The position numbers and the translations under genes are program-made. From assembly GCF_964204865.1 (NCBI RefSeq), contig NC_135263.1, forward strand, positions 18,211,426 through 18,275,425: 64,000 nucleotides of DNA, written 5' to 3'. The notes under the pieces are model-generated. The model was not told the DNA's origin. It was given only the letters and a program-made list of their open reading frames with translations, and searched no databases. The first letter of the stretch is position 1; every line of letters begins with the position of its first letter. Origin of the DNA: Styela clava (lineage: Eukaryota > Chordata > Ascidiacea > Stolidobranchia > Styelidae). Of the stretch, positions 1 through 57,965 are shown one piece after another.

Positions 1-1222
1 AAGCTTTATATATCTTCCTTCAACTGATTAGAACGTTAAACACTCATTTCTGAATATATTTAAAGCGAGTAAACTCGCGATGTTTTGATCATATTTGGGT
101 TCTTCTCCCCGACTGTGGCCCGCGAGACACCCTCAAAAGTTTTGCGGTCTGACAACCCCGCAACCTTGGCCCACCCTGATCTACATGATATTTTTTGAAA
201 AAAGTTCTCATGCCTACATATATTTATATTGAGGTTTAAGGCGATATTTGAAATAGAAAAATAAGCAAAAATTTATTTCAACCGGGCCAATATTGAGGTC
301 TGAAGCGTCTGACCAATTACATTACCATTGGATTAAACACTGAAGCTAAACACTAAAATACGTCTATAGATATTTTTGGTGCACTTTTCCTAGGTGCCCC
401 AAGCACGTGCTCTTGATTATCTAGTCGGATTTTTTTGTAGAAAGCCCTCTTCACTAATGCGAACTGTGAGCTTTGAGAAAAACGCTGTGTTTCAAAACTT
501 ACCGTACTCACGGTCAAAGCTGACGGGAATTAAACTTAATCTGGGTCGGTTTTGTGGTTGAAAATGAACGTGAGTGTGAATGCCCGCGGATGTGAATGTA
601 CGTGGCCGAGAATGTCCATAAGTGATAATATCCATTTGTGCCGACTGTAATCGACTCACTGTTAGAAAATAATGGGAAGTTGCCATGCTTAACAATAATT
701 ATAGATTTTTTTGCATTACATCTGACTCTGTTAAATTGTAGTAGCCACGGCCTGGAGTTACAGGGTCCAGGGTCCGCGTTATTTGGGTTTGTATGAGTTA
801 GTATTTGTGATCAAGTAACTTTAATGTAGCTGTTCAATATTTTTGAATTTTCCATACGACTTTAATATAGTTATTTCCTATTGTATTACGTGTTCTTTAT
901 TTGTTCCACTGTTATATGAAGCTTTAGATGACTAGATCTTACATTCTGTTTTTCACTCGCTGTCATTGAGCTCAAATATTACGCCTTAACTTTTATATGT
1001 TATTTATCAATGTGCATCGACATACCACTGTGGTTATAACCCCGTTTTCGATGATCCCTTTTTTCGCGTGAAGAAATTTACGTTTTCCACAATCTAAACC
1101 CGACACGTATAAAAAATTGAATATATAATTCTGAAATTTTGGTACTGAAACGTATAGAGATAATTTTAATTCTGCATAAGAATCCTCATGAAATGAGACG
1201 TGTTACAGCATCATGTTGTTAT
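1..1222. other. Intergenic, no gene seen
   Basis: AT-rich sequence with only short random open frames. Around 541-600 there are a few degenerate units resembling the 16 bp minisatellite of the MULE ends, too diverged to call. Nothing else is supported. Confidence 0.5.
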
Positions 1223-1405
1223 GGTTCCATTACATTTGAACCCACGACAATTGCACCTGCATATTATTGCACTTATGGAGAAATTTCTTTGTTTTACGGA
1301 TATTTAAACCCACACTGACCCTAAACCATGGGTTTTAGCACCCGCATATGGATTGAACCCGCGGATATACACATCGGTTCAAATGTACGGTCATTAACTC
1401 ACATT
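1223..1405. mobile_element. Solo end / deleted copy of the foldback MULE family
   Basis: Starts with GGTTCCATTACATTTGAACC, the same terminal sequence as the elements at 17062 and 52702. It continues with the same order of motifs (TTGCACCTG, a TTTTAGCACCCGCATAT block, then TTCAAATGTACGGTCA). I find no 9 bp duplication around it: the right end reads GGTCATTAA where the intact copy reads GGTCACC. It is therefore an eroded or truncated copy. Confidence 0.7.
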
Positions 1406-2502
1406 ATTAACCAACATCCCAATTCGAATTTTCAAAAACATCTAATTCATTCAATTCTAAGGCACACAAATATATTTTTTTATTCAATACACTATTCCTT
1501 CTACGACTCACATACGGCAATAAGTCTTGCATACCTAATTTTTTAAAACATGCCCTGATTTAAAATAACAATGGGATTTTATTTGTGCTTGAAAACAATG
1601 ATTTCAATCTGTACTAATCAGTGTATTTCACATGTTTATTTATATTCATTCTGAAAAATTTTCTGGTCGGTCTATTTAAAAAATTAGGCTTGACTTTACT
1701 ATAAAGTGGGTTTACAACCACAAAAGTATAAACGTAATTAAAATATGATTGGTGCATCTGACCACGATTTTCAGCGTCAACTGTTTCGACAGTCATTGTG
1801 TATCGCCATTTCCTTTTCACAAGTTGACATATGAGACGTCGGAGAAGTTAAGAGGGATAGTTTCAAATTGGCATAATCGATACAGGTTCGATGAAATATG
1901 CGTATCGGACAACGAAATTAAAATTGATTACCTAATTTCGTTATCGGTCAGGTTTTATATTATACATCAAATACAAACTTTCCTAATATGGATTGATTGT
2001 CCTGTACAAGCATTTATCTCTCCTAACATAAATATAAAAAAAAAAGCAATTAATCATATTTATTTTTGTTTGAATATGATATATAATTGTAACCTAATAA
2101 TTTACTGTACTCAGTTATGGATTACCTGTACGCACGGAGGTTATAATCGTGGAAGGTCACGATTTAATTTAGCTGAAACGGAAATGTCATATTTTTATCT
2201 ATATTTATGATATATATATCATCTGGCAAGCTACTATAGCATGATTACGGAATGACTTTGTGAGAATGTTTGTATGCGCTGATATAGTTAACGGCAGGTT
2301 ATTTCACATTGCAAATGTTATAGAATTGAGATTATCATATTATTCAGCATTGTTACTATTTCGTTCCTATATTAGTTTTATGCATAAAGTTCTTTCAAAA
2401 TAATTTGTTCTCGTCGATTTCACAGATAATTAAATACGTTTAGATGCGGTTTACATATACCAATTTTAATGTAATTCCTTTGTGAAATATAGATAGCGTA
2501 AG

Positions 2503-5500
2503 ATGAATTTTGATAATGGAAACGATTCTAACGTTTTACCTGTTGAAAACGAATATGAGACCAACATCATGGACACTGATGATACATCAAATTATCAACA
2601 AGAAACAATGAACCAAAGTGAGCTGGAATATATCGTCGTTAAGTCTGTAAAAAACGTATTTTAGTTTCTCTATCTTGCATGCTGTTATCGAATGTGGAAA
2701 ATGCCGGAGATAAAGTCCCAATCAGCTTATCATTCCACCTCGGTGTAATAATCTGAATATTCCGAGCACATCTTGAAGAATGACTATTCCAAATTCATCA
2801 AACCCACACATGTAAACAGCTTATCTCGTACGTACTTGGTTTCAGGCAAAAGTGTAACATACAAATACTATTGTCAACTTACAAAACCAGACTGTCTAAC
2901 TACCACACCAAGGCCAATACGTAATACCTATTATAACTACTATCTACTATTAACTATTATAACTATTATCATCTTTTGCAGATCGTACAAAACCTCTATC
3001 GCCTCTCGGATGCGAAGTGAAAAAGAAGAAAAGATTCATCTGCGTCTTCACAATTTTCTTGCTGGTCGATATTCTCATCACTGCAATTTGCTTAGTATTT
3101 GTGATGCAGGTAGGATAAAAATCAAACATCGCTTACAAATCAATGTTGATTACAAAATTGTCTTTGGCTATATTTAATATAACGGAACGGATACAACCGA
3201 GGAGTTGACTATTAAATTGAACTCATCGAGTTTCGCATCGTTTATTAAATTTCTTACGTCCGTGACGCTACGGCCCCCATTTTCGTAGCTTTCACGATAC
3301 ACCAGCCCTTCAAACCTTCACTTTTAAAAGGCCCTATATTTCACTTTCATGTGATTGTGCTTTTGGCTGTGATCAAAAGTTTTCGAAACATAATAATATG
3401 TTGAATAAGCAATCGAGTTTACGTCTGTTCCGTTCCTGTTTATGATCAATATAATTATGCTATCGTAAACGTTATTGAGTAATATAATATTTATGTGCTT
3501 TTAGATTAGATATATATCCCTTATTGCACTTTTATACGTCTTCAGTAAACTGGGCTCAGAATAAAAGGAAAGCTATGATTCTCCAACTGAAACTCGAAAG
3601 TTTTCAAATTCCACTTTTTTGTATTTTTGTTAAGGCATGTGGCTTGTACCAAGTAAGTTGTTAAAAAAATATAGGATCAACTCACCAGCTATAGGATTTA
3701 TCATATTACACGAAAAAAGTCCAATAAAACGACTCGAAAACGTTTTGTTTATCGATCTGTCTGTTGCTAAAATTATATTATATATGTTATTAGAACCAGA
3801 AAACAATTGACCGAAACTAATCGAAAATCAATAAATATCAGTGAATTTCGATCAAATACCGGTATCAGTCAACTTGCACCAGATTTTCCACAATGTGTGA
3901 ACATGGTGGACTTGAAGGTGAATGTCTCGTCATATTTTGAAATAACTGTACTCTAAAAACACGAGTTCTTCCATAGATAGGCATCACCACCATATATGAT
4001 TGTAAAAAACTCAACGGAAACAATTCAGTATGATTCCCGTAATATTTTATATGTATACCAAAATATCCAATCTCTAGCAGGTTGATCTTCGATATCATGT
4101 GTTTTGTTTATCACAGCAGGTGACCTGTAAAACATTTTTCAAGTATTTTTGGACACGCATACACCACTGATCATTGATTATTGGCGCCATTAATATAAAT
4201 ACATTATACCGTTTCCAATGGTTCAAGTGCTTTTCCACTTCGAAGTAAATGTGGTCAAGTCCATGATACTTGTCAATTATGTTGTATGATATGCGTTTCG
4301 ATTCATTAGATTGATTGTACACCAAAATAGGTCATGTTAGATACTAATCGTCAATATATAATGTCAGCAAACAGTTATCCTCCAGACTTGTACCGCGGGT
4401 ACACACATGAAAATATCCGAATGAGCCCAGTTATATATTTACTTAATTATTCTGAAACTAATTTTATATTCGTAATCAAAACTCACCCTCGATAGAAGGT
4501 ATATTATCACATGGCCACCTCAACATGTATGGGATTATTACTAAGCATCGAATCCGTTTGTAAAGTTTGTAGTGACCTTCAGATCTTCTTGGTTCGGGGA
4601 CTGTTTCCATTATTCAAGGGCGATGAAACATAATTTGATTTCTGTCTCTCATTTCTTCTACATAAACAATCATTCTCGTGATATTGCATAGTTGAAGAAA
4701 TAATTAATATTATATATTTCAGGGGAAAGCGGGGGAAATTAATGAAGTTCGAGGTAATTATGGTTTTTGTGTATATAGGAAATAAACTAGACGAATCAAA
4801 TTTTATTTTGAACTCCGCCCTGGTACACAGTGACAACAGGCAACTTCAAATGAGATTTAAACATGCAACAAAAAAGTACATACCTGACCAATCTCACCAT
4901 AGAACATAGAATATAAGTGAAAACATACGATGGGATACTTCCTACTTGTGCGTAAATTTTACAAGAATAAACACCAGAACTGTTATTATAAAGTTCCTTC
5001 AAGGTCTTACATTGTCCTCCAAACGTAAAAATATAACACACGGGTGGTGTATGCATTTTATACTAAACCTAAACAGACATAATTAATCACAGAATGCAAA
5101 ACAAGCCGATGAGAAATACTCCTTTCACACAAACTTAATTGACCAAAAATGTTTCCAGCGCTGAAACTTACCAATAAATGTAATGATTATTCAAATATTG
5201 TTTTATTCTTTCATGTTATTTAGATATTCTAAGGCTAAGCTGTTCATGCGAATAAAATACTAAACCTGCGAATTTTCATTTCCTATTTTTAATATTTTAT
5301 TTTCGAATTGATTTATTTGTTTTTGCTTTCAAAAGGCACCTCATTGCTGTTATTAGAAACTATTCGCTCTACTTTTGCTTGGATTTCAATATAACATTAG
5401 CTATTCTGTTATCAGCAGATTACGCAGCCTATACAAACATATCAGAATTAAGAAGTGAACTTCCATCAGAATGGGGAAATATTTCTGATACGAAATTGCT

Positions 5501-16644: not shown

Positions 16645-17061
16645 TCAGTCACTTTGACAGTATTCAACCACGGAACCAAATGTCTTACATAATCGCCCTC
16701 CCTCAGCACTGATTCTTTCGGATTGTCTCCACGCTCTTAGAAGTATGGAATGTTTCATTAATTCATCTCACCATCTGGTTGCGCGAATAATTTATACACT
16801 TAATAATTTGAGAAAAGAAGGTAATAATGTCAAATACGTTTGGATGTACCGGGTACCCCGGTCAGGCGAAATGTTACAGAAATACATTTGTGTTAGTGTG
16901 CAGCAATGCTCTTGAATCAAATAGTACAGTCATCTTTATTCTTACCAGAGCATCCTTGCCTTACGTACACGCATACGGATCCACTTCCACATACCCCTAA
17001 TGATAGTTGCGAAAATTATGTTTTAGTTTTGCCGCGGGACTCACATTAAATAGCATGTGAC
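16645..17061. other. Intergenic stretch before the MULE
   Basis: Nothing supported except the left copy of the target duplication (17053-17061, GCATGTGAC). Confidence 0.5.
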
Positions 17062-17630
17062 GGTTCCATTATCTTTGAACCCGCGTACATTTGAACCCGT
17101 ACATCTGAACCCGTAATTTGAACCCAGAACAATTGCACCTGTATACTATTGCACCTATGGACATTTGCACCTACGGACATTTGAACCCATACATTTCCAC
17201 CCATGGATTTTAGCACCCGCATATAGATTGAACCCGCGTACATTTGAACCCGTGTACGTTTGCACCCGCGTACATTTGAACCCATGTACATTTGCACCCG
17301 CGGACATTTGAACCCGTGTACGTTTGCACCCGCGGACATTTGAACCCATGTACATTTGCACCTGCGGACATTTGAACCCATGTACATTTGAACCCACGAA
17401 CATTTGCACCCGCGGACATTTGAACCCATGTACATTTGAACCCACGAACATTTGCACCCGCGGACATTTGAACCCATGTATATTTCCACCCACAGACATT
17501 TGAACCCACGTATATTTGAACCCGCGTACATTTGAACCCACGGACATTTGAACCCGCGTATATTTGAACCAACGTATATTATATTTGAACTCGCGTACAT
17601 TTGAACCCACGCACATTTTCACAAAAAATG
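17062..17630. repeat. Left inverted end with 16 bp minisatellite
   Basis: The unit is about ACATTTGAACCCGCGT, alternating with ACATTTGCACCCGCGG, in roughly twenty tandem copies. A unique terminal segment (17062-17225) carries a TTTTAGCACCCGCATAT landmark. Because 16 is one more than a multiple of three and the unit has no stop codon on the minus strand, all three minus frames stay open. Those long frames are not genes. Confidence 0.92.
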
Positions 17631-18882
17631 TTTGCCCCAACAGCAATTTCCAGTCGCAAATAATTTTCATGTTACAGGCGCAAGCTCAATATATATTCTA
17701 AATTTCAACACTATTTCATTTGTAGTTAGTTTTGGTGTATATGCATTTACCCGCTTCTACGAAGCAAGCATTTTTGAGTGTCATTGTAGTCCCTAGTCCG
17801 AGGGATAAACGTCTCTTAACGATATAAACAACATTGTTCTGCCAAGGTCTTTTTTCTTTTGCTGTTTTTTTTACATTGACATTTGTAAATCCTTATCTCC
17901 TTCGTTAGCCGCGATCTCCAAAACAGACGATGACCTAGAAAGCGGTATTTCGTTGAAATACCTGAAACAAGGGCTAATACGGAACAAATATCTCACAGAC
18001 CAATGAAGTCTTAAATGCGGGTCTTACTAAAACTAGCTTTACAGTAATATTTTTAGTGGTCAACTCCTATAAATTTGTTCTGAAATTATTGCACCGAAAA
18101 CGCCTACTATGATATCCCGCCCAGCATGAGATTTGGGAGCTCTGTGGCCACTTCATGTTTTCTTGCTAGCATGTTTACAAAATTGTTATATGTATGCATA
18201 CACGACCACGCTTTACTGTTGAAAATGAGTGTTGTCTCAAATCAGGTTTTGCCATTTTTCCTAAAATCAATCTATAAATTGAATACTATTGTCTGTATAT
18301 AAATAAATAAACGCACAGATTCTTCGTTTCTAAGAAAATATGAAATTAAGATAATGAAACTATGTCATTTTTGTAACAACATGTTCATAGCCAAATGCCA
18401 GTTTTATTGAAGTATTGTTTCATTAGAATGTCAGAACAAAACTATACATAGAAATCGTAAGTCATGTAAATATGTTGAATATTCGAAAGTGAAGAAGTTT
18501 TAAAATCATTATCGTGGCCAAAAATGGTTTTTGCTGTTTACACTATTTAGAGTAAATCGAACATATTCAGCATATAGGGTCTGTTAAATATGATATTGCA
18601 ATTTACAAACGACGTCATAGGTTACGGATTACATTTATTTTAATATCTCAATAAAGTTATCACTCACAAATTTGTGTCGAATGGGCGATCAATTTTGAGA
18701 TAGAGTAGCTATGGACGTTTTACAAAATAGGAATTTATCAATTATGATACAATAGTTAAACAACAAATCAAAATAATGACGATAAACGAAATTTTACGAT
18801 ATCACGATCAAAGTTAAAATCAAATAGACTGCATTTGAGCTATTGAGTGGAGATACCTCAGCTTGTCGGTTTCAGTTCCATA

Positions 18883-20212
18883 TCAAAAAACTTTAACTGA
18901 CAACCTAACAGCAAGTTGTACATACTTTGATCTATGGTGGGCCGTAACTCCTACATGAGCATTTGCCGCAGTCAGTTTGTGGACCGCAATGTCTTTTCGT
19001 AGGCCATTCAGCAAACGCCATATACTCGGATGTTTGCATCGGAACATTCCTTGTAAGGCGTTGTGAAATCCTTCTACAGCGTTTGTTGTTCTTGGGGCCG
19101 AAGGCATCATTTCAATCTCTTTGGCATAGTTCCACAACCGAGGGGGAAATCTTGCTTCTCTTGGACGTGAACCCATTTGAGGTCCACGAATGTAGGTAGA
19201 TTCAAATATTGCAAAAGTTGATTGCATTCGAGCGAATCTTCGAAGGTGTCGCAAAGCAAGGTGAAGACTTCGGCAACCTCGTTAATGGGAACAAAAGCCA
19301 GAGCTGCCAAACTTCTAATTTTCAGATTGAAAGAGGGTAAACATTCAAACTTCTCTTTTAATCCGATAGAACCAACTTTTCGAATTATAGCTTGTGACAG
19401 GTGAAAATAACATCCTTTAATATCGGCCAGAGGAAATTGTGCATGGAATGCATTGATAGCTGCTATTTCAAAATCAACAATGATTTTGGTGGGGTTAGCA
19501 TTTGGGAAAATGATTTTCAACACTTCCCACATCTGAACGTATGTTTCATGTCGCTTGTCTCGTAATAGGAAATATACGCATGGTGGATAGAATGCGCCCA
19601 CTTTACAGTGAATTGTATACAACAGGAAGAAAATACCGGGCACCACATCAAATGTACCGTCGCCAAGATATGTGTCACTATCTAGATGTGCAAGTAGTGA
19701 TCGATCTCCAATGGCCATTATCCGATGACGATCCTCCGGGCCAGTGTCATGCAAAATGATATCTAAATATTCGCTCGGAATATCAAAGCTTGCACTTGTA
19801 GGATTCGTACGTGAAATTCGTAATTTTTCTGTCGCCTTACTCTGCGTATATTGACCTCCAGAGTCGACTTGCCTGGCAAGCGCATTAGTACATCTGTTGA
19901 TCTATTATTCAATACTTCACCTAAAATATATCTTGTCGATGTATTTGATGGTGTTGATGCTGCTTCTTTTAATGTTGCACGGATGATCCCAACTTCAGTC
20001 TTAATGCTGTCGCCAGAATGACTGTGATATCCTAGTTCTTTTATTACATTTTCACCGATCGTAACAACAGTCGATTTACATCGAAATTTCCTAAACTGAC
20101 GGCAGCGCCAATGAGTAGCATCTGAAACCCGATCATTTCGCTTACAATATTCGTGGCCTTTGTAAATCAGTAAGTCGTTTCCTCTTGTGGTCTTGGAAAA
20201 TGTAGGCGCCAT
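18883..20212 (-). pseudogene. FLYWCH-MULE transposase, disrupted by two frame changes
   Basis: Three adjacent minus-strand frames make up one transposase. The first (20212-19763) starts with a FLYWCH-type zinc finger: FSKTTRGND, THWRCRQF..FRCKST and ELGYHSHS. The second (upstream bound near 19860, ending 19107) holds the MULE core: DGTFDVVP with the first catalytic Asp, IIVDFEIAAINAF with the second, and GCYFHLSQ, the C-x2-H motif of MULEs. The third (19254-18883) has FPPRLWNYA and PRTTNAVEGFHNALQG, which supplies the catalytic Glu. The frame changes near 19822-19860 (by an A run) and near 19190-19205 break the gene. Small introns are a less likely alternative, since no GT-AG pair fits obviously. 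The family cuts and pastes DNA, making 9 bp duplications. Confidence 0.88.
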
Positions 20213-20283
20213 GTTTCCAACTTATTTTCGCAAAGGGACTTGTCATCTTCGCTGCTGCAACGTCCTGAAGAAACAGTTTGGAA

Positions 20284-20397
20284 TTGTCTGCGAGGGAAAA
20301 AGGGCATTGATGCGAGGAAAAACTTTGCGCGGGATCGAACTATCTGCGAGGGAAAAAGGGCATTGATGCGAAGAAAAACTTTGCGCGGGATCGAACT
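20284..20397. repeat. 57 bp tandem duplication
   Basis: Two nearly identical 57 bp units (TCTGCGAGGGAAAAAGGGCA ... GCGCGGGATCGAACTA) at 20284-20340 and 20341-20397 differ at about one position. They lie just upstream of the transposase start inside the MULE. Confidence 0.85.
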
Positions 20398-20642
20398 AAC
20401 ACATCAATTAAAATCCTTGCTCGCGCTCTTCAAGAGTCGTCGACCGTTCAAAGCACAAAAAAAGCACAGGTGCAATTGTCATGGGTTCAAATGTACGTGG
20501 GTTCAAATGTAATGGAACCGTAGAAAATAGTTGTAATAAAGCCTTCGAGTATATAGTCGAGAATTCCATGGTAATATTGATTGTTTTCGCAACGTATGCA
20601 TTTGGAGAAAGAATCCTAAGTGTACCTTCCAATCCTATATAC

Positions 20643-20980
20643 CAGGGCTACTCAACTATTTTCACCAAAGGTCCGTTTACGAAACTTCAAAATTACTGGG
20701 GTCCGGACATTACAGAAAATTTATTTCATCAAATAAACGAAACTTCAAATTCAATATTGAATTAAATACAAGAGCAATGAATGGCTCGCAAATATGGACA
20801 CAAATGTCGCACATCGGTACCAGTACGACAAACTGTACAGCTGTGTATTTAAATTGTATCAAAATCATTTAAAACTATAAAACGATGCTTATGCTGCTAA
20901 AATAAACAAGCAAACGCGGTCCAAATTTTATGGTCAAAAGGTCCGGATTCGGACCGCGGTCCGCCAGTTGAGTAGCCCTG
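20643..20980. mobile_element. hAT-like MITE inside the MULE, duplication CTATATAC
   Basis: The ends CAGGGCTACTCAACTA and AGTTGAGTAGCCCTG are inverted. Both flanks are CTATATAC (20635-20642 and 20981-20988). The 338 bp insertion is later than the MULE. Confidence 0.9.
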
Positions 20981-21039
20981 CTATATACTATAGTATATAG
21001 CATGGAAGGATAAGGGTGTATATGTAAAGACGCTGATAT

Positions 21040-21521
21040 CCGTAAATGCAAATGCCCATGGGTGTAGATGTTCATGGGTGCAAATGTCTGTGGGTACAAT
21101 TGTACGCGGGTGTAAATGTATGTAGGTTCAAATGTCCGCGGGTGCAAATGTACATGGGTTCAAATGTCCGCGGGTGCAAATGTTCGTGGGTTCAAATGTA
21201 CATGGGTTCAAATGTCCGCGGGTGCAAATGTACATGGGTTCAAATGTACGCGGGTGCAAACGTACACGGGTTCAAATGTCCGCGGGTGAAAATGTACATG
21301 GGTTCAAATGTACGCGGGTGCAAACGTACACGGGTTCAAATGTACGCGGGTTCAATCTGTATGCGGGTGCTAAAATCCATGGATGGAAATGTATGGTTTC
21401 AAATGTCCGTAGGTGCAAATGTCCATAGGTGCAATAGTATACAGGTGCAATTGTCCGGGGTTCAAATTACGGGTTCAGATGTACGGGTTCAAATGTACGT
21501 AGGTTCAAATGTGCTGTCACC
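21040..21521. repeat. Right inverted end with 16 bp minisatellite
   Basis: This is the inverse of the left end: about nineteen units of the form CGGGTTCAAATGTACG, then the GGGTGCTAAAATCCATGG landmark, then the terminus. Homology to the left arm continues outside the array to the tip, showing that it is a true terminal inverted repeat and not only shared satellite. Confidence 0.92.
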
Positions 21522-22127
21522 GCATGTGACATATCTCGAATTATGTTTTTTGTGTGAAATATGGCGAATGTAAAGAATTCTTATGCTTTTATGAATACCG
21601 GTAGTACGATGTGGACATAAGGTATTTATAACATATTGACATAAAAATGACTGTTATTTCCTAACTTTTTAATATCGACTTGTACCTTTGATACTGCACA
21701 CGGTAATTGGTGAGTCATATTATTGTTCCTAAGCCAACACCTATTTTCACTTTTGAGAGGAAAGGTTCACATAAATGAGTTATTCCTATTGTCACCGCAA
21801 CATACATTGCCATTTGCCCTAGACTTATCTCCAACAACATAATTTTGAAAAAAAAAAATTAGCTTTCCAGAACGAGTAACTCAAATCCGTTAATGCCTGG
21901 GGATCAATGACTTCAAGTTGTATACATTTCACCTCTTCCATCGGAATGTTGAATGAACACATGAAAATTTTATATATATATCATGTGTGGACTGCTTGTA
22001 TTCAATCAAATTGACAACCCGGGCGTAAATTCCTACTACCGATTAAATTATGCCCCAAACTCGTAACGGAGCGTAATACTACGTCAAAATTGCACGACAA
22101 ACGAGAATGATATTTTTCCAAGCCAAA

Positions 22128-38208: not shown

Positions 38209-41200
38209 TCAAACAGGTGCAGAAACCACAGGTGCAGGTGACATGGATGGTGTACTATTTGTAACATCAACCTCCATCCCACTACTGCAGTCAGAGTTCT
38301 GCCTTTCGATTTGTGAGGGCATATCTTCACAAAGGTTCAACTCGAAATTTGCAAGTTTCGCTGCAGCACATTTTTCACAGACATAATCCAACTCTCTTGC
38401 TTCTTCAGGAGATACTGAAACACAGACACAGTGGAACCATCCCTCACATCCTCCATCACATTGTAACCAATCGACTTCTTCCCCGGTTGGTTGTTGGCAA
38501 AACACTGAGCCACCAGTAGCTTCTTTAACGGCACAAAATGCATATTCATCGTCATCAAAAGCAACAAAAGTATCAAGAACGCTTTGCTTTCCTTCACTTT
38601 TTCTCTTCTTCTTCTTTTCATGTTTTTTATTGTCTTTTCCGGAGAATGGAGTCCCATCGGTGGAATTACGCTGTTTCTTTTTCCTTTTCTCAGCAAAGTT
38701 AGTTATGGCTACTTCCTCTTTCTTTTTCCGTTTTCTGTCGGCTTCTTTGTCAAGACCGTTAGATTTGAGTATTGTTTGGCTAGCTTCTGATTCACACAAT
38801 TCTAAAAATTTTTCATCATTAATAGGTTGACTTGCCTGCAATATTTTCCATATCTGCTGAGTTTCATCCAAAGAAACTTCCAGCAAATCTCCTTCCATCA
38901 TCAACTCTTCCAGTATCGTTTTCATCTCATCTGGGAGATCAATAAGAGGACCTTTTAAAATTTCCTCAGTTTCCTTTCTGAGTTCTTTTACTTCTAAAGA
39001 AGGTTCATCAACTACTTCAGCTGAAGCAACATCCTCTTTGGTGGAAGTAATATCTTCAGAATGAACTGGATGAGGTGGTGTTTGTTCAGACTTTTCTTCT
39101 TTTGAAGTTTGTTCGTAATCAGAAACTGCAATTGGTTGTTCAATAGCATTATCTTTTTTGTGATTATCATCAACCTTATCCATGTCTTTTATGGATGGCT
39201 CATCAGTAGTGCTGGTAATAACCGCTTTCACTTCAGTATCCGGTTGATGCGACGGATTGTTTTCTATTTTTGAAGCTGGATTAGTGCTCTCTACTTCAGC
39301 ATTGACTTGAGATTGGTGATGATTTGAAGCACATGCTATCATTGCCAAAACTTCTGCTGCCTCCATTACATCTTCTTGTTCAGTATCTGTCTTTGATGCA
39401 GCAGATAGAAGAGCATCAACACCTGAGGAATCTACAGTCCTTGTCTCTTCCTGTGGACATGATTTTCGAAGAACACTATCAATTGTATCATTAATTGATT
39501 CAATTGAAGACATTCTTCTAGCAGTGGCAGATAAAGCTATTTCCGAGTTGTGTCCGTTTGTGAGGGAAATTTTAGGGACATCGGTTGAAATCTTTTTTTC
39601 TTGTTCCTGCCATAATTTTTCATTTTCTTTCATCTTCTTGTTTAGTTTTTTTATTATTGCTGCATACTCAGGGGCTTTTAAAATATCCCTTGCACGATCC
39701 TGCCAACTCATTGCACGTTCTGTCAAACACTGTAAAGCCTCACCTTCACGAATCCGAACAGGCAATTTCTGGAGTTGAAGCAAAAGAGATAAAATAACCT
39801 CTAACCGTGGTCTCCTTGAGCGATGACATAAAGGACATAAAAATTTTAGCTCATAGACCTGTTGTACTTTGCTTTTTTCTTTATTGAATTTAATCGGTGG
39901 CACACAAGAAGTATGAAACCAGTCATGACAGAGTTCACATTGAAGCATGAACCCGGATGATGGACGTTTGCAAACACAGTACGAGTCGTTTTCAGATTTG
40001 ACTTCAATATTTGTAGGTGTTATTGTGCTCTTTCTATTGTTCCGCGATCTCATATCTTTCATGACTTCTAGTTCTTTTTCTTCCATGTCCTTGAACTTTG
40101 CTACTACCTCAGCTGGGTCAATAGGATTTTTTATATCAAAATTATCCGTTTTGGCCCATTTTTCAATCATTTGTTGCTGCTCTGTCTGTGCATCTTTGAT
40201 TTTTCTTCGCATTGCTTTCAAGTTAGTCTGACCCCTATTTTCTGCAGAACGAGGACTCAATACTTCAAACAAAGAGAATATTGTGTTTTTCTTTAGGAAA
40301 GCTCGACAAGTTCTCTCTTTCCATTCTTGTGCTGCTTCAACTTGTGTGTTTAAAATTGGTAACTGAGACAGTTTGACTTCCATAGAATTTGCTTGTAGAA
40401 GGAGAGCTTCCAAAACCTCAAGATATGGATAGTAATCCTGATTATGAATGGTATGCAACTTTTTCTCCCAAATGTTTGCTTTTTCAACCACTTCCTGTAG
40501 CTCAGCACAATGTATAAGTTGCACTGGAACATTTTGGGACTCGGATGTGATAACTTCTGCTGTTTTTAGACTGCCTTTTTCCTTCATTTCGAGAAAGCTT
40601 TTAGCCTTATCCTCCCATGCTTCTGAAAGATTGAGAAGTTCCTGCAACTCAGCCATTGCACGTTCAACAGCAGGCCTAGGTGACACAGACACTCCAGAAT
40701 CTATCAACTTCCTTAATTGCTCCAATGTTATCAATGATGGTGGAGGATCACAATCATTTATTTCATCGTCCAAAAGGAGACAAGATCTGACTTCTTCTAA
40801 CCACTTTGCTTGTTGTAGTGCGTGGTGTAGTAACGTCACCTGTGGAAGTTCCAGATCAAAATCTAGTGAATCCTCTATCAAAACAGCAATGTTATGACTG
40901 CAAGGTTCTTCCTCTTGCAGAATAATTTCAGTTTGAGTAACAAATTTTTCAATTCGCTTTATATAATCAGAAACCTGATCCAAGTTTGGAATTGTGCATG
41001 GTAAACCTAATAGTTGTAGATAAAAAGCCCTTATTTCTTCCAGCGTCAATAAACAAGTATTTGGATGAGTTATAATACCAGCTGTGGAATGAATTTCTTT
41101 TTGCCTAGTCCTGTGCTTTCTAACCACAACAAGCTGTTGGGCAACTCGTGAACACTTTTCGGCTTCCCGTACAGCTGACTGCAATTGATGCAGCAAATCA

Positions 41201-43659
41201 TTTTCTGGAAATTTCCCTTGCACAGCTTCTTCAAGCAATTCTTTCAATTCGTGTAATGTATACTTGTTTTCAAATCTTGAAAACGCATCGCCTAATTTTG
41301 TAGTCCATGTATCAAAAGACTCCGCTCGCAATTTCATCTTATGAAGCAATGGAGGTAATTCATCCAATGTGTATCTATATCGAAGTATAAATTTACTTGG
41401 ATCACAAGTGCTGCAGAGCCTGTTGACATGGAACGTACAGACAAGGTGATCTGGTCTACATGGGCATGTAATTGCGGACAAAAAGCATGCTGTTTTGCAG
41501 ATGAAACACTGACGTTCATCATCGGGTACAACCTCAAAAGCTTCCCTTTCAGCTTGACATACACCAAGCTCATGAAGTTTCTTTCTTGCTTCTCTTTCCT
41601 CTTGCAGCATAGCAAGCATATCTCTGTAAACAGCAGCTGCAAGTTGAACATCTAAAACGTCAGGATTATTGGCGACTTTACATAAAATTTCTTCGTGTGA
41701 AAACACACATGCTCTTTTTACTGCGCGATAGTGAGCAACAGATTGTCTGCCAATAGGTATCCAATCAGCTGGACAAAAGTTCACGGCTTCTGCAAAGTTA
41801 TATCCCTGATTAAAACCTGCATGATATGCCCTGGGGAAGGTAACAATGAATTCACCCGCACATTGGTTAGTTCGGACAACTCGCACACCATTGTTCATCA
41901 GAGTTGAAGGATTGATAGTGGTTACAAGATGATGCATAACATCAGGGTGGTTCTTGAATAGGTCAGGTGCGGTATTTTGCATTACTTCTTCCAGTTTGAT
42001 TGCATCTTCTCTTGGAACACCATACCAAGTCTTTGGTTCTCCCCAGTGAAGATAATTGATAGAATATGTCCAATGATCTTCAATGTGCCAACAAAAAGCA
42101 GAGAAGCACATACCGACATAAACCCATGGTATTTTCATTCCTGACATGTCACCAGTCATATAACTTAGTAATGATTGTTTCGCAACTGGTAGATTGTTTA
42201 AATTCCATCCACTTTTTGCATAATCCTCTTCTTCAGCAGAAAGTGGATGTTTCTCTTTGTCGCACATTCTAGGAAATCCACTTCCGTGATTAAGAACATG
42301 AATATCGGCGCCATACTCCACTGCAACATCCTCTTCTATTGATCCAATTAATCTCCAGAATTCTCTTTCAACCAACTCAGTGGGGATCATGTGAACAGGT
42401 TTTGTAAAATATTCTGACTTAAAAGCATCAGCCATTTCTCCAAAACTTTGTAGTGTGTATTGCTTTCTTGCTTGTTCAAAACCATAAGCGTCTATGACTT
42501 TGTTGCATTCTTTAGACAAGCATTTTGGACATCGCCAATCCCCTTTGGGAACTTGGTTCAATGGTGGAATCAGACAGTAGGTATGGTAACTGTCATCACA
42601 TCCATCACAGAGTAAAAGTTGAGTGTCATTGTGATCCTTCAGACAAACTTTACAATTACCCATTGTATCAAGAATGGAGTATGGGAGCTGTTCTGAACCC
42701 TTCTTTCGTGTGTTTATTGAGGTTGTGTCAACTGTTGCGGTAGGAATTGCAGTTTCTGGCTTTATCTTAGTTTCTATTTCCCCGTTGTAATCCATCAAAT
42801 CAAATATATTTTTGCAATCCTCATTCTTCGGTTCTATTTTGATAGTAGCGGGTGCAGGTTCACTTTTAATTTCTTTTTTATTTGCCTCTTCTGATTTTAT
42901 TCGATTTCTTCTCTTAGCAATTAATCCCAGGCCTACCATTTTTGGGCCTGCACCAAAAAGCTGCAATTTGGCAAGTTCTTTGTTATTTGATACGTCTACA
43001 ACAAGAGATGGATCATCTATAGTTCTTCTTTTATTTTTCTGGCGGGCAGCTTCACTTTCATCTTCTTGCTCTCTCTGTGGTTTTACCTTGCTATTCCCTC
43101 CATATCTTCCTGAAAAACTTGGAAGTGGTTTCCCAGAGCCATCAAGGCTCTCAAGAAGAACGCCAGAAACCATTATGTCATATGGATACAGCAATCTTTC
43201 ATAATGTTGTTTTATTGTTGCAGAAAAATTTTTTGCAACTCCTAACTTTACACATGCGGCATTCCATTGGCGGTTCTTGCAGACTTCTTCAAATCCCCCC
43301 AATTTCCTTACGGTCTCATGGAGACCATACAAATCTAAAGGAGAGCCGGCAATGTGTGGCAGTCTGAATGTAGTACCCTGTAATTCCCAAAACTTAGCTA
43401 CTTTCTGAATGAATTGAAGTCGAATCCGAGTTTGAATACCTAATTCATTAAGTCTCTGTATTCTCGGTGTAAATTTGAAATTTTCTACGTCAATAGCAAA
43501 TGGGGGTTGCCAATAAGGTGGAGGCCGTATTTTACAAATGCCTGCTTTTTCTGCTATAGGTCTGATCTTAGCAATGTATCCAAGTGGATGAGCAAATTCT
43601 TCTTCGTTTGGCTCAAAAACTGGAGCCTCTGGAGGAGGAAAGAATTCATCATCAAACAT
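38209..43659 (-). CDS. KDM5: Lysine-specific demethylase 5 (KDM5), single exon, 1816 residues
   Basis: One unbroken frame starts at MFDDEFFPPPEAPVFEP and encodes the full family architecture. JmjN is at about 10-55, ARID at 75-160 (KFWELQG, HYERLLYPY) and PHD1 at 336-382 (CKVC..CDGCDDSYHTYC..CPKC). JmjC follows at about 490-640, with Fe(II) ligands H525 and E527 (WHIED) and H613 (YHAGFNQGYNF). Next come a C5HC2 zinc finger (about 718-752), the PLU-1 helical region, PHD2 from C1228 and PHD3 at about 1709-1754. It is a 2-oxoglutarate/Fe(II) dioxygenase removing methyl groups from trimethyl and dimethyl H3K4. PHD1 in this family reads unmodified H3 tails and PHD3 reads H3K4me3. Vertebrate orthologues have more than twenty introns and this gene has none in its coding sequence. 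All catalytic and zinc residues I can check are kept, so it looks functional. It is head-to-head with POLR2C, about 1.95 kb apart. Confidence 0.98.
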   Translation of the reverse strand: MFDDEFFPPPEAPVFEPNEEEFAHPLGYIAKIRPIAEKAGICKIRPPPYWQPPFAIDVENFKFTPRIQRLNELGIQTRIRLQFIQKVAKFWELQGTTFRLPHIAGSPLDLYGLHETVRKLGGFEEVCKNRQWNAACVKLGVAKNFSATIKQHYERLLYPYDIMVSGVLLESLDGSGKPLPSFSGRYGGNSKVKPQREQEDESEAARQKNKRRTIDDPSLVVDVSNNKELAKLQLFGAGPKMVGLGLIAKRRNRIKSEEANKKEIKSEPAPATIKIEPKNEDCKNIFDLMDYNGEIETKIKPETAIPTATVDTTSINTRKKGSEQLPYSILDTMGNCKVCLKDHNDTQLLLCDGCDDSYHTYCLIPPLNQVPKGDWRCPKCLSKECNKVIDAYGFEQARKQYTLQSFGEMADAFKSEYFTKPVHMIPTELVEREFWRLIGSIEEDVAVEYGADIHVLNHGSGFPRMCDKEKHPLSAEEEDYAKSGWNLNNLPVAKQSLLSYMTGDMSGMKIPWVYVGMCFSAFCWHIEDHWTYSINYLHWGEPKTWYGVPREDAIKLEEVMQNTAPDLFKNHPDVMHHLVTTINPSTLMNNGVRVVRTNQCAGEFIVTFPRAYHAGFNQGYNFAEAVNFCPADWIPIGRQSVAHYRAVKRACVFSHEEILCKVANNPDVLDVQLAAAVYRDMLAMLQEEREARKKLHELGVCQAEREAFEVVPDDERQCFICKTACFLSAITCPCRPDHLVCTFHVNRLCSTCDPSKFILRYRYTLDELPPLLHKMKLRAESFDTWTTKLGDAFSRFENKYTLHELKELLEEAVQGKFPENDLLHQLQSAVREAEKCSRVAQQLVVVRKHRTRQKEIHSTAGIITHPNTCLLTLEEIRAFYLQLLGLPCTIPNLDQVSDYIKRIEKFVTQTEIILQEEEPCSHNIAVLIEDSLDFDLELPQVTLLHHALQQAKWLEEVRSCLLLDDEINDCDPPPSLITLEQLRKLIDSGVSVSPRPAVERAMAELQELLNLSEAWEDKAKSFLEMKEKGSLKTAEVITSESQNVPVQLIHCAELQEVVEKANIWEKKLHTIHNQDYYPYLEVLEALLLQANSMEVKLSQLPILNTQVEAAQEWKERTCRAFLKKNTIFSLFEVLSPRSAENRGQTNLKAMRRKIKDAQTEQQQMIEKWAKTDNFDIKNPIDPAEVVAKFKDMEEKELEVMKDMRSRNNRKSTITPTNIEVKSENDSYCVCKRPSSGFMLQCELCHDWFHTSCVPPIKFNKEKSKVQQVYELKFLCPLCHRSRRPRLEVILSLLLQLQKLPVRIREGEALQCLTERAMSWQDRARDILKAPEYAAIIKKLNKKMKENEKLWQEQEKKISTDVPKISLTNGHNSEIALSATARRMSSIESINDTIDSVLRKSCPQEETRTVDSSGVDALLSAASKTDTEQEDVMEAAEVLAMIACASNHHQSQVNAEVESTNPASKIENNPSHQPDTEVKAVITSTTDEPSIKDMDKVDDNHKKDNAIEQPIAVSDYEQTSKEEKSEQTPPHPVHSEDITSTKEDVASAEVVDEPSLEVKELRKETEEILKGPLIDLPDEMKTILEELMMEGDLLEVSLDETQQIWKILQASQPINDEKFLELCESEASQTILKSNGLDKEADRKRKKKEEVAITNFAEKRKKKQRNSTDGTPFSGKDNKKHEKKKKRKSEGKQSVLDTFVAFDDDEYAFCAVKEATGGSVFCQQPTGEEVDWLQCDGGCEGWFHCVCVSVSPEEARELDYVCEKCAAAKLANFELNLCEDMPSQIERQNSDCSSGMEVDVTNSTPSMSPAPVVSAPV

Positions 43660-45609
43660 ATTGAATTTTTACATACAGCAGCTTATTAAGATCTTTAAAT
43701 ATGAAAACAAAATTCAGAAAAATTAATATGGATCTAATTAGATAGAATATACATATTCATCCCGGGGGAGAGGAAAGTACAGCCTAATCATATGGCGAAG
43801 CATGGCCTCTCATTAAGTTACCAGTCCATGTCGGGATGGGATTAGTTAGCCAGTTATTAGTTTTCGGAAGCAAGGACTTGATGGTGGAGGAGGCAGTAAC
43901 CGACCAGCGGTTATATGAACACCCTATGGCGGCGAGGAGTCCGGAAACCGTTTGCACATAACTAACCCTGCATGAGATCGGAACCCACGAACAGTAATCA
44001 GAGGTGCGGTGACAAGCATATTCCTAACACTTAGCATGATGCGCCACACCGCCGAGCCGGGAAGAGATATTTCAATTTCCTTAGCATGTCAATTGAAAAA
44101 CAAAATCATTTGGTTGAGTTGTAATTCTGTTGTGTATTTGCACAATCTTGTACATAAATTAAGAATTTGATCACATTGAGAAGATATCAAAATGCTTTAC
44201 TAAAAATTTAAATTGTCAATACATCATTTGCATTGAATATCATGTACCGGTAGGCTTACCGGTAAATAGTTTTATGTTTTTGTATATTTCCATGAGACAA
44301 CTTCGCTTTGAATAAAGCCGGAAAAATATTCAACCATCACTGTCATCAAATATTCTTACAACTTCAATTTATTGGAACAAAGATTATTCAATTTAGTGAT
44401 ATTTAAAAATGATCATTCATCCTGATATGTTGATTTGGCTAACTAGCAGAAGCCTAAATAAGGAGCTTACAAAGTGGGACAAGGTATCTGATCCAATCAC
44501 AGAAATACTTTTTTCATCTGTAGTTTATTAATTTTTATGTGTTGACATGATTCGGGTTGTAAACATTCCATTTTACACCAAATTTTAGTAAATTTGACAA
44601 GAATTACCAAGATGGAATTGGTACACCAGTCATGAGGAAAGCAAATTTTTATTAAAATCAACGAACTCCTGAATTTGTTTGATTAAGATTATAATTGACT
44701 AATATTACGAATGATTATGCCTAAACTCAACCCAATTCTAAACTCAAAATTTCAAAGTACTGAAGTATAAGGGTGGTCTGTGTTTATCATCCTTCATGCT
44801 GGTTAATATTATAAAAATGTTTTACTTTTGCACTGCTGAGGCAGGTATTTAAGAGCAAATTTCATACTAGATAATAAGGAAGCAACAATTTCAGTATATA
44901 CAGCTAAACGAAGGCGATAAATTCAGAAATCTCAGTACCCCGTATAGCATTTTTACGCTTCCTTAACGACTGACTGAACGGCGTCGGAAAATCGTAGATG
45001 AATTTAAATACACATCACACAGTCACAACATCGCCGTATATAAAGGATCTCACGAGAGAACGCGCACAATCAGATTGCATACCTTTTAAACTTAAACATT
45101 CCAAAAACTTTATTTAATTCAACACAAAATTGTTGCGCGAAATGCAAAAAATCCAAACAGTTTTTAGATTCTCGCACACACAGACATATCGCCAAAATTG
45201 GATCTACTACATTATTATTTCTACGCTGATTTTCATACCAGGAAAAATCTGCCGAACGGTTATTTAATCCATGGCAAAAATATAACTTAAAATTATTCTA
45301 ACTAAAATAAATTACCACACAGAAAGGAAAAATATTAGACGCACAAGACCCTGAGCACAATCCGTCGCCATTTTCGCTACGTGACCACTTGGTGTCCGTA
45401 AACACAAAGAAGAAAAAGGGCAATGACGCATTAAGATGAGAAAAAAGTTATTTCAGCAGAAAATAGAAAAAATGCAACCCGGCAAATTGTAATTATGTAC
45501 GAATTTTGCATTTGCTCTGTTCTTTCCAGGGGCGTATATTGAGGGGTTCGATTGTGTGCTTTTTTATTATTCTGGGTTTAGCGCTGACAAATCGAAGACA
45601 AACAATACA
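43660..45609. promoter_or_regulatory. Divergent KDM5 / POLR2C intergenic region
   Basis: The only space between the two divergent start codons. A SINE occupies 43750-44063. On the minus strand AAAATGGCGAC at about 45370-45380 matches a YY1-type site. On the same strand a TTTAAAG acceptor-like site near 43691 allows a 5' untranslated intron for KDM5, which would put its start of transcription near the YY1 motif. No direct evidence of either. Confidence 0.35.
43750..44063 (-). mobile_element. tRNA-derived SINE, full-length-like copy
   Basis: Read on the minus strand it begins near the GGCGGTGTGGCGCATCATGC block (A box region), has GGGTTCCGATC as B box, a body with ACTCCTCGCCG and ACCGCTGGTCGGTTAC, and ends near CTCTCCCCCGGGATGAAT. 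The same body recurs at 45780-46070, 46130-46180, 46300-46430 (inverted) and 58023-58165, and a head fragment lies at 61280-61350 and 61838-61995. A pol III promoter followed by a shared body and TCCTATCC-like tail fits a SINE. Confidence 0.8.
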
Positions 45610-50076: not shown

Positions 50077-50237
50077 TAAGAAGATTGAAAATAAAGTTTA
50101 GGACTCCAGAAATGTGTCTCTAAGAACATCCATGCCAATAATATTCACATTAGGTCTAAGAAGATTGAAAATAAAGTTTAGGACTCCAGAAATGTGTCTC
50201 TAAGAACATCCATGCCAATAATATTCACATTAGGTCT
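50077..50237. repeat. 80 bp perfect tandem duplication at the WLS stop codon
   Basis: The 80 bp unit beginning TAAGAAGATTGAAAATAAAG and ending TCACATTAGGTCT is present twice in tandem (50077-50156 and 50157-50236) with no difference that I can see. On the minus strand it is the first part of the WLS 3' untranslated region, touching the TGA. Confidence 0.95.
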
Positions 50238-51874
50238 CAGTCCTCAGCACTTTTTTGATGTGTTAATTCCAGTATACGAATCTGATCTGTGATTTGACTT
50301 TGGGCCCCATCTCCTCCCGGAGTCTGGTGCAATTCTATCAGTTCTTGACGACTGTCCATTTCGTCAGTATCATCTACATCAAACTGCTTGTGTGATGGAG
50401 CATACACTGAGAGTACCAGGAAAACATAAATATTCCATAACCCATAAACTCCTGTGAAAAAGGCAGAGTTAACCTCAACACGATGATCTCCAAAATCCAA
50501 CATTCCATCATATTTTTGTGAAAGTATGTAAAACACAATTGTAAGGGCAGCAGTAGATATTGAAAGTATCATAAGGAGTCTAAACCTGAAGACGACTGTC
50601 TTGAAATTGTTCGCTTGTATAGAAGTAATGAATCTCTGCTTGTATGACATTATGCGAAAAACTTTAACAACCATGTAGCACAGCAGTAGAAAATAAATGC
50701 AACCAGCTACACTGGCAACCACAATGAGAATCATTGCAAAGTTGTGGTGCGTCCAAACTGTGGAACAAGGATTCACCAACTGCATCCCACGTTCAGCAAT
50801 ATCAAAAGCTAACAGAGCAAACAGAGAAATAAAAATAGCACTCAAATGAAAACGATATGTTGAAAGCTTGTTGCGTTGTGAAGGATTCACCATATGTTCT
50901 CCCGTAAATATAATCCAAAAACCAAGCAGGATACCATAAAAGAAGCCCTGGCGAATATCTGTGAAGAATAGCATCCAGGGAGCTTCTATAAATATCGAAA
51001 TCAATTCAATAGGTATATTCAAGAATAGGATTGAAATTCCCAAAGAGAATATGGCTTTTTCAATCAGTAGAGGTTTTCTTTCAAGAAGTTTGATTCTTCT
51101 CCAGAACCAGATTACTGGGAATATCATTAAGACCGTCATAACTGACTTGAGACTTGTCCACACCTGAGTAAAGCCACCATTTTGATGTATTGCAATCACA
51201 GACATTTCTTTTGCATTGCCGAACTGATTGTACATACCACCATCTTCAGTAACGTCAACCGGCAAACGAAGGTTGATCAGATAACGTTTATGTGGAATTG
51301 AGCCCAACTGAAACAGGTGCAGCAACTCACAATCATACTCATAATCTTCATGTTCTTCATCAAAATCATGATTGAAATTACATTCAAGTATGCGATCTTC
51401 TTCACATCTTGCCAAGGTTTTCCACGCCAATTTATCTCTTCTAACCGCAGAACTGTCCTCATTACTGTACAATATATGAATATCCAAACGCATCGGTGCA
51501 TGTGAAACATAAGGATTATTAGTTTTATATGTTATTTTCACTTGAAGTAGGGCAAGTAGGTATTGAAACCATGGTGTCATTGTCATAATTCCAAGATTCC
51601 TCGGAATATGTGCTATAAGAACAAGATCGCTAGGATCTAATCCTGTAACTTTGACGCCTTGAAGATCTGTAACTGGGTCACAATTCTGCCTAGTGACAAC
51701 ACCAGACTTGTTTCCTTCGGGTATACAATTTGTCATAATGTGTTCTTGAGCACGAGCTGGAGGAGGAGCAATTAAACCACCAATCAGAAAAAATATGATT
51801 TGCACAACCAGAAGGAACATAAATAACATCACAAGCTTTCGGGTTGAAAGAATTTCAATAACTTTTCCCGCCAT
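50237..51874 (-). CDS. WLS: Wntless (WLS/Evi), single exon, 545 residues
   Basis: A complete one-exon frame with the family's usual length. A first membrane segment (about 14-35, LVMLFMFLLVVQIIFFLIGG) is followed by a lumenal domain (about 40-235) with paired cysteines and the HNFDEEHEDYEY-type acidic stretch. Seven further membrane segments lie between about 243 and 490 (for example SVMTVLMIFPVIWFW and AIFISLFALLAFDIAERG). The last ends in VYAPSHK, conserved in animals, and a polar cytosolic tail follows. WLS binds lipidated Wnt in the ER/Golgi and carries it to the cell surface. The start ATG lies in AATATGGCGG, which also resembles a YY1 site. Vertebrate WLS has about a dozen exons, so the absence of introns is unusual. 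Confidence 0.98.
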   Translation of the reverse strand: MAGKVIEILSTRKLVMLFMFLLVVQIIFFLIGGLIAPPPARAQEHIMTNCIPEGNKSGVVTRQNCDPVTDLQGVKVTGLDPSDLVLIAHIPRNLGIMTMTPWFQYLLALLQVKITYKTNNPYVSHAPMRLDIHILYSNEDSSAVRRDKLAWKTLARCEEDRILECNFNHDFDEEHEDYEYDCELLHLFQLGSIPHKRYLINLRLPVDVTEDGGMYNQFGNAKEMSVIAIHQNGGFTQVWTSLKSVMTVLMIFPVIWFWRRIKLLERKPLLIEKAIFSLGISILFLNIPIELISIFIEAPWMLFFTDIRQGFFYGILLGFWIIFTGEHMVNPSQRNKLSTYRFHLSAIFISLFALLAFDIAERGMQLVNPCSTVWTHHNFAMILIVVASVAGCIYFLLLCYMVVKVFRIMSYKQRFITSIQANNFKTVVFRFRLLMILSISTAALTIVFYILSQKYDGMLDFGDHRVEVNSAFFTGVYGLWNIYVFLVLSVYAPSHKQFDVDDTDEMDSRQELIELHQTPGGDGAQSQITDQIRILELTHQKSAED

Positions 51875-52701: not shown

Positions 52702-52888
52702 GGTTCCATTACATTTGAACCCATGACAATTGCACCTGTATGCTATTGCACCTATGGAATTTTTTTTGTTTCACGGATAGTTAAACCCATACTAACCCTA
52801 ACCCATGGGTTTTAGCACCCGCATATAGATTGAACCCGTGGATATACGCATGGGTTCAAATGTACATGGGTTCAAATGTACGGTCACC
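52702..52888. mobile_element. 187 bp internally deleted foldback MULE, duplication ATTTGTTTT
   Basis: The left end GGTTCCATTACATTTGAACC and right end GGTTCAAATGTACGGTCACC are flanked by a perfect 9 bp duplication ATTTGTTTT (52693-52701 and 52889-52897). It retains the TTTTAGCACCCGCATATAGA landmark but has no array and no transposase. Short copies can therefore move, or could when a transposase was active. Confidence 0.92.
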
Positions 52889-53099
52889 ATTTGTTTTAGT
52901 TGACGAATCAATAAATCTCTCAATCTCTCTCTGCTACGGCCAAACCTATGGCGACCAATGATGGCAACCATTGAGGTTATATACACCTCAATGATGGCGA
53001 CTGACTTTTTAGCTGCCACGAACCAATGACGAGCTGCCATTACCGCGGCAGCAAATTAAAACCAATGGCAGGTAAACTTTTGCTGCCGTAACCACGACA

Positions 53100-57644: not shown

Positions 57645-57965
57645 TCTGTACAACACATCGCCTAACTTGGCCCGACCATATACTACGATTGTATTACAAC
57701 GTGTCGCCTACGTAGGCCCGGCCATATGTCACAATTGTGTTACAACGTATCGCCCACATTGGACCGGCCATATTTCATGATTGTGTTACAACGTATCGCC
57801 TACGTTGGCCCGACCGTTTGCCACGGTTGCATTACAGCGAAAGGACCGACGTTGGCCCAGCGGCCAAATCTTCGCTGGAACATGGTTGTTCGCCATTATT
57901 GGGCCGGTGGTTCGAACAACGTTCGGCCATGGTTGTTCCGACGTAGTTGTGCTATCTGGGATGGT
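57645..57965. repeat. 46 bp tandem repeat, about four units
   Basis: The unit reads about ACAACGTATCGCCTACGTTG followed by GCCCGGCCATATGTCACAAT and TGTGTT, with units starting near 57650, 57696, 57742 and 57788. It ends in GACGTAGTTGTGCTATCTGG, the inverse of the motif at 53129. Open frames here come from the repeat and are not taken as genes. Confidence 0.75.

Follow-up and report, generated by a model that had tools for sequence, protein, structure and literature searches.

A probable Phantom/Muta-type Mutator-like transposon with tandem-repeat foldback ends in the tunicate Styela clava

A 64,000-nt stretch of the genome of the tunicate Styela clava (C18:18211426-18275425 of the 376.6 Mb source assembly; hereafter, the window) carries an insertion that, judged from its sequence, is very probably a Mutator-like element (MULE) of the Phantom/Muta type with type-2 foldback ends. 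The element starts with GGTTCCATTATC at 17062 and stops with TGTGCTGTCACC at 21521, and is flanked on both sides by the exact 9 bp duplication GCATGTGAC, for which the chance of a random 9-mer match is ~4e-6. Both ends consist of arrays with a 16 bp period, detected by Tandem Repeats Finder at 17074-17618 (34.2 copies) and at 21047-21512 (29.6 copies). These arrays are inverted copies of one another, with 91% identity across 474 bp. Between them, the minus strand encodes a transposase with a FLYWCH zinc finger and a MULE transposase domain (Pfam E-values in Table 1). A preliminary description had noted an intact insertion between perfect 9 bp repeats of the target, opposing 16 bp arrays, a FLYWCH-MULE transposase, and what looked like a different animal phylum from that of Drosophila; these points were borne out by the analysis, which also found the copies sharing termini and 9 bp duplications that the description had asked for. 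Elsewhere in the assembly, on C9, a GT2 match (60.8 bits) and a GH6 match (35.4 bits) lie on one strand, 2.1 kb apart, which agrees with a tunicate host, as a fused cellulose synthase-GH6 gene is, among animals, known from tunicates; mitochondrial COX1 gave no match in the assembly. The long terminal inverted repeats expected of MULEs are found in the window copy, and in a second copy, L024, whose inverted repeats span 439 bp with 92.7% identity.

Copies in the same genome (L numbers) were collected with a 164-bp left-end query, which gave 178 matches, 40 of 1644 candidates being scored. Thirty of the 39 other strong left-end matches, together with the window copy, made up a sample of 31, biased towards young copies whose left ends are intact. 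In 23 of these, the left and right tips both lie within the stretch examined for the copy, and duplications could be evaluated: 17 of the 23 have exact 9 bp duplications, three have exact 8 bp duplications (L011, L020, L028), one is imperfect (L016, 8 of 9 positions matching), and L017 and L018 have none. These lengths fall within the 8-10 bp range of MULE target site duplications. The right tip was outside the stretch or missing in seven copies (L014, L021, L029, L032, L033, L036, L037), five of which (L014, L029, L033, L036, L037) have a right tip in the expected orientation 4.5-13 kb off, and L038 has a left-type tip at both sides, without a duplication. Among the 17 exact 9 bp duplications, G is favored at position 1 (8/17), T at position 2 (12/17), A at position 8 (9/17), and C at position 9 (10/17), with p=0.006 for G1 and p=0.0002 for C9 against an assumed frequency of 0.18, uncorrected for the positions inspected. 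A symmetric preference of this kind would fit a dimer that cuts both strands.

By the likeness of its sequences, the family is young and numerous. Copy length was 3,991-4,133 bp in 12 of the 19 copies measured, the rest being 458, 2,825, and 4,460-5,677 bp. The median body divergence was 2.4% (22 copies, positions 600-3500, L018 and L038 excluded), and the smallest, 0.07%, was found between L020 and L030, which lie on different chromosomes and have different duplications. Frame breaks affect most of the copies studied, but some of the broken copies are near-identical despite lying at different sites, and so have spread recently. A body segment (17640-18640) gave 84 candidates in the genome, and the 40 that were scored all matched with 96-100% identity over the whole query or almost the whole of it, which gives at least 40 long copies, and perhaps ~80. 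The transposase had 174 matches genome-wide, with 145 of 239 candidates scored, and many of these matches are fragments; a MULE domain of any kind gave 82 matches. The right tip, allowing at most one mismatch, occurs 258 times, and the left tip, allowing at most two, 3039 times (miniature and long types together); the reversed-pattern controls gave 0 in both cases.

The transposase of the window copy is split into several frames, with the FLYWCH finger and the MULE domain in different frames. An uninterrupted 462-residue frame is present in L028, the one such frame among the 31 copies examined. In the L028 protein, the FLYWCH finger (residues 5-65, E 5.4e-11) and the MULE domain (residues 183-272, E 3.5e-8) both exceed the Pfam cut-offs, as PF10551 does in the window frame; an N-terminal FLYWCH finger and a MULE domain within one protein is the domain make-up of Phantom. 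Nineteen frames in the 31 stretches start with MAPTFSK, with lengths of 462 residues in L028, 448 in L024, and less in the others. Four sought motif strings, whose residues we take to be catalytic, are all present in the L028 frame, and two of them are missing from L024. A truncated 286-residue frame is common to L020, L022, L023, L027, and L030, which differ by 0.07-0.73%; since five near-identical copies carry the same truncated frame, broken copies have spread, and their transposase was presumably supplied in trans. In the PDB, the transposase matched FLYWCH1 weakly (E 0.014), the other hit (E 1.2) being unrelated, and one scan of viral contigs gave no transposase relatives. Elsewhere in the genome, L047 (918-2099) encodes a distant MULE-like protein, a candidate outgroup, in which a SWIM-like CxC..CxH pattern was picked out by visual inspection.

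The ends have a layered structure, in which a terminal motif is followed by subterminal tandem repeats inside the inverted ends, the arrangement that characterizes type-2 foldback elements. Comparison of 21 copies revealed seven fixed differences and one near-fixed difference between left and right tips, all in the first 22 bp, and no fixed left/right difference beyond them up to position 306; position 67 is partly sorted, with A in 14 of 21 left arms and G in 20 of 21 right arms. The first 12 bp are identical in 17 of 19 left tips and in all 19 right tips, as well as in 9 of 10 further left tips. The two tips, GGTTCCATTA and GGTGACAGCA, are unlike each other and non-palindromic by eye. The head that follows contains about ten GAACC/GCACC motifs, irregularly spaced at 16, 14, 13, 15, 16, 16, 16, 14, 15, and 18 bp. 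This spacing is kept in 23 of 24 left heads, L038 being the exception, and is exact in 13 of 24 right heads. Another six right heads have only lost motifs (L016, L018, L025, L031, L035, and the window copy), and two have a 1 bp insertion or deletion (L015, L017). The inner array consists of regular 16 bp units, TTTG(A/C)ACCC(G/A)(C/T)G(T/G)ACA.

The proportion of variable columns was lower in the head than in the inner array, both in the left arm (9/168 vs. 35/116, Fisher p=2e-8) and in the right arm (22/168 vs. 34/116, p=0.0013). When only variants seen in at least two copies were counted, the left arm had 3 in the head and 16 in the inner array (p=0.0001). Among 24 long copies, the distance to an inner anchor could be taken in 22 arms on each side, giving arm lengths of 346-554 bp on the left and 437-685 bp on the right, with 19-35 motifs per measured arm. 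On the right, 17 of 22 arms fall on one 16 bp ladder (477, 493, 509, 525, 573, 621, 685); on the left, 8 of 22 fall on a ladder (346, 410, 490, 506, 538, 554) and another 6 are off by 1 bp (473, 505). Relative to L024, the left arm of the window copy is longer by 64 bp (four units) at one point and shorter by 15 bp at another.

Thirteen copies form three near-identical groups (L020, L022, L023, L024, L027, L030; L011, L012, L013, L015, L016; L025, L035). Within these groups, a whole-unit change of the array was seen in one of 26 arms, namely the left arm of L023, which is without 32 bp that L024 has; between the groups, or subfamilies, array lengths differ, mostly by whole units. The preliminary description had portrayed the ends as a fast-evolving satellite. 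Within subfamilies this view was rejected, given the single changed arm and the left-head spacing kept in all copies except one; between subfamilies, where lengths differ, it stands.

Miniature relatives of the element are abundant. The genome contains 510 complete miniatures that are 172-202 bp in length and exact at their tips, against 0 for the reversed-pattern control, and among the 100 of these that were listed, lengths peak at 187 (45), 188 (11), and 202 bp (14), besides a small group of 172-173 bp (6). Of the two miniatures in the window (Table 1), the complete one is flanked by a perfect 9 bp duplication although its right end comprises no more than about two units, and a right end of this size thus sufficed for at least one insertion. 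The L028 stretch holds a further miniature, flanked on both sides by TGATGATCT.

Right tips were also encountered in other arrangements. Outward-facing pairs, 277-431 bp apart, were present at 6 of 100 listed places (C4:7083716, C5:6412154, C5:6431614, C8:15526284, C8:15555160, C10:1863885), as if they were miniature foldbacks with two right arms. On contig C5 (2811783-2832996), six right tips in the same orientation recur with a period of ~4.48 kb, the last step being 3.3 kb; no transposase match was listed in this tandem run, which includes the right end of the 16 bp-array MULE family.

A mechanism can be outlined for how such ends might work. The FLYWCH finger of the transposase would bind the repeated GAACC/GCACC motifs, the head and tip together would nucleate a synaptic complex, and the MULE DDE domain would cut at the tips and insert the element into a staggered 9 bp target; frame-broken copies would move in trans. 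By analogy with the THAP sites of Galileo, the inner array could provide extra binding sites, and slippage or unequal exchange could alter its length. The ends would then have two zones, a near-invariant head that assembles the transposase complex, and an inner array that acts as a tunable reservoir of transposase sites and feeds new structures, among them the paired right-arm foldbacks and the C5 tandem run of right ends. We consider this two-zone proposal distinctly unlikely as it stands; if true, array length would set the transposition rate of each subfamily in a living chordate transposon.

Several observations weigh against the assignment and the layered view of the ends. The label Phantom draws on the domains of the protein, the length of the duplications, and the range of hosts. 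Three right heads deviate from the common spacing: L009 is shortened, L010 has one unit fewer, and L038 has the other tip type. Five of 22 right arms are off the ladder (437, 465, 476, 540, 659), two of them by exactly 1 bp, as are 8 of 22 left arms by more than 1 bp (520 in five copies of one group, 489, 494, 533). Among right-arm variants seen in at least two copies, the difference between head (8) and inner array (13) had p=0.063. The copies had been chosen by likeness to the left end of the window copy, which inflates the conservation of the left arm; the right-arm contrast is less biased. Finally, selection on the transposase protein was considered and rejected: no sign of it was seen in the sampled copies, where polymorphic coding sites are distributed evenly over the three codon positions (25/23/22), and coding variation is about the same as non-coding variation (0.050 vs. 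0.044 per base).

The long arrays might instead be a by-product, a satellite grown by slippage that has no role in transposition, with the tips and a few units being sufficient. The 510 complete miniatures with exact tips, the perfect duplication around a window miniature with a two-unit right end, and the variation of inner length next to a head that barely changes all favor this explanation. However, the long copies all keep long arms (22 measured on each side), array length is almost constant inside subfamilies, and the miniatures, whose tips are slightly different, may represent a sister family with its own transposase. On balance, a by-product origin of the arrays falls somewhat short of probable. 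Another explanation concerns the likeness of the two arms, which gene conversion within each copy, driven by foldback, could maintain. Between ~23 and 306, the two arms of L024 are identical, both carrying the variant GTGGACG that is absent from the left arm of its near relative L023, and all fixed left/right differences are confined to the first 22 bp. Against this, all right arms of the L024 group carry GTGGACG, such that the left arm of L024 may have gained the variant once, and position 67 is still partly sorted between the arms. In addition, the observed left/right concordance was reached by 135 of 2000 shuffled pairings (21 copies; L009, L018, and L038 excluded); because of this, homogenization is kept as a rival explanation, and a rather unlikely one.

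It is highly improbable that the element belongs to the FB/NOF (Rehavkus-like) lineage of foldback elements, as in Drosophila, rather than to the Phantom/Muta type. The element resembles that lineage in its 9 bp duplications and in having long inverted ends built from short tandem repeats; for Rehavkus, PMC6446971 lists duplications of 9 bp, ends spanning 26-400 bp, and a C-terminal minisatellite. The same source describes a PHD finger in Rehavkus, whereas the Styela protein has an N-terminal FLYWCH finger and, in its L028 version, matched no PHD finger even with E values of up to 1 allowed; furthermore, the arms measured here are 346-685 bp long.

With the Phantom/Muta assignment preferred, the element can be compared with described systems. 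FLYWCH-MULEs with tandem-repeat foldback ends are already known, and the Styela family is a further member of this type and not a new architecture, since Tm1 and Muta1/Muta5 have the same combination of features and tunicates are listed among the hosts of Phantom. Two views in the preliminary description, that the system was undescribed and that Drosophila FB/NOF was its main precedent, could not be upheld on this ground: Muta1/Muta5 (PMC5225508) and Tm1 (PMC3169594) share the transposase type, ends, and duplications, and the group listing in PMC6446971 gives Tunicata for Phantom. The Styela family stands out by its longer arrays (19-35 motifs per measured arm vs. 1-9), by having a head that is set apart from the array, and by its recent abundance. 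No description of it was found among the papers that the literature searches listed, with most subscription papers and the repeat databases lying outside the search.

Muta1 and Muta5 of Aedes aegypti (PMC5225508) likewise encode a FLYWCH-MULE transposase, have foldback ends of type 2, are flanked by duplications of 8 or 9 bp, and come with numerous non-autonomous derivatives in which the number of repeats varies. Muta1 has nine 12 bp repeats separated by 3-4 bp, and Muta5 nine 15 bp repeats, within ends of 145-151 bp, as opposed to 346-685 bp in the Styela element. Introns interrupt the coding regions of Muta1/Muta5, whereas a single open frame encodes the Styela transposase; the terminal motif of Muta1 is a 10 bp palindrome, whereas the Styela element has two different tips. 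Muta1 excises and reinserts in yeast, producing 8 or 9 bp duplications, and a DDE mutation abolishes this activity; reinsertion is described there as being without target preference, in contrast to the weak symmetric preference in Styela. Tm1 of Meloidogyne (PMC3169594) is also a FLYWCH-MULE with 9 bp duplications and miniature derivatives. Its ends carry repeats of ~14 bp in variable number, and its outer motifs differ between the two ends, as in Styela. Each Tm1 arm has 1-9 units, mostly of 14 bp, with a CGATTCAGTATC-like consensus, compared with the 16 bp TTTG(A/C)ACCC.. unit of Styela. Tm1 is characterized as an inactive, senescent element that has a single transposase copy, in contrast to the at least 40 long copies, some near-identical, in Styela.

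The Phantom group (group 20) is outlined in PMC6446971 as having invertebrate and tunicate hosts, FLYWCH in some members, duplications of 8-10 bp, and ends of 18-613 bp, with a minisatellite after the transposase in aphid members. Drosophila Galileo likewise has long, internally repeated foldback ends with variable numbers of inner repeats, but differs in its P-superfamily transposase, THAP domain, and 7 bp duplications (PMC3573991, PMC3688188); its inner repeats carry extra transposase-binding sites (PMC3688188). Tetris of Drosophila virilis (PMC4079207) has, as here, duplications of 8-10 bp and tandem repeats inside its foldback ends, and its repeats were later amplified into a satellite; it differs in its 220 bp repeats, and no transposase was found for it. 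A binding-site role of Foldback/Phantom tandem repeats was called untested in 2013 (PMC3688188), and evidence of MULEs in chordates was described as limited, besides one Ciona savignyi sequence (PMC6446971). A young family with at least 40 long copies in a tunicate adds to this sparse record. Its near-identical copies, subfamilies of differing array length, and near-fixed heads, together with hundreds of short-ended miniatures and at least one uninterrupted transposase frame, provide a natural test set for the repeat-binding question.

Table 1. Coordinates of the element, its parts, and related features in the window (strand "." where no orientation applies).
Feature	Position	Strand	Evidence or remark
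Whole element	17062..21521	-	transposase on minus strand; frame breaks make the window copy non-autonomous
Left target site duplication, 9 bp GCATGTGAC	17053..17061	.	sequence comparison
Right target site duplication, 9 bp GCATGTGAC	21522..21530	.	sequence comparison
Left tip, 22 bp	17062..17083	+	compared with right tip across 21 copies
Right tip, 22 bp, reverse complement GGTGACAGCACATTTGAACCTA	21500..21521	-	tip comparison among copies
Left head, GAACC/GCACC motifs, irregular spacing	17074..17251	+	motif spacing in 24 copies
Left array, 16 bp units, 34 motifs in the window copy; inner part variable	17074..17618	+	
Right array, 16 bp units, inverted relative to left array	21036..21512	-	
C-terminal transposase piece, own frame	18883..19254	-	compared with L028
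Piece with MULE transposase domain PF10551	19107..19754	-	Pfam E 8.2e-9; unbroken in L028
N-terminal piece with FLYWCH zinc finger PF04500	19763..20212	-	Pfam E 7.8e-12
Patch of ~60 bp that ends in a miniature-type left tip, inverted	20460..20520	-	
Nested element of 338 bp in the MULE body	20643..20980	.	8 bp duplication CTATATAC at 20635-20642 and 20981-20988
Complete miniature, 187 bp	52702..52888	+	9 bp duplication ATTTGTTTT at 52693-52701 and 52889-52897
Second miniature, more diverged	1223..1397	+	left tip intact; right boundary approximate; no duplication recognized

Within the body of the window copy, the inverted left tip at the end of the ~60 bp patch was considered as an alternative right end of the element, at 20519. 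This boundary was rejected: the next 9 bp do not match the left flank, the duplication sits at the outer right tip instead, and other copies run through this place without the patch. The body flanking the patch on both sides matches L010, L011, and L012, among the copies listed, and at the patch site L024 instead has ~120 bp of other sequence. The 338 bp nested element is non-autonomous, with ends CAGGGCTACTCAACT that we take to be hAT-like. A 56 bp tandem duplication, also seen in L045, lies directly upstream of the transposase start, at 20287-20398.

Outside the element and its miniatures, the window contains a KDM5 open frame of 1819 residues (38209-43668) and a Wntless frame of 554 residues (50237-51901), each uninterrupted; intron-free frames of these genes are, we presume, unusual for an animal. 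A 46 bp tandem repeat of 4.5 copies, dissimilar to the 16 bp unit, is located at 57649-57858.

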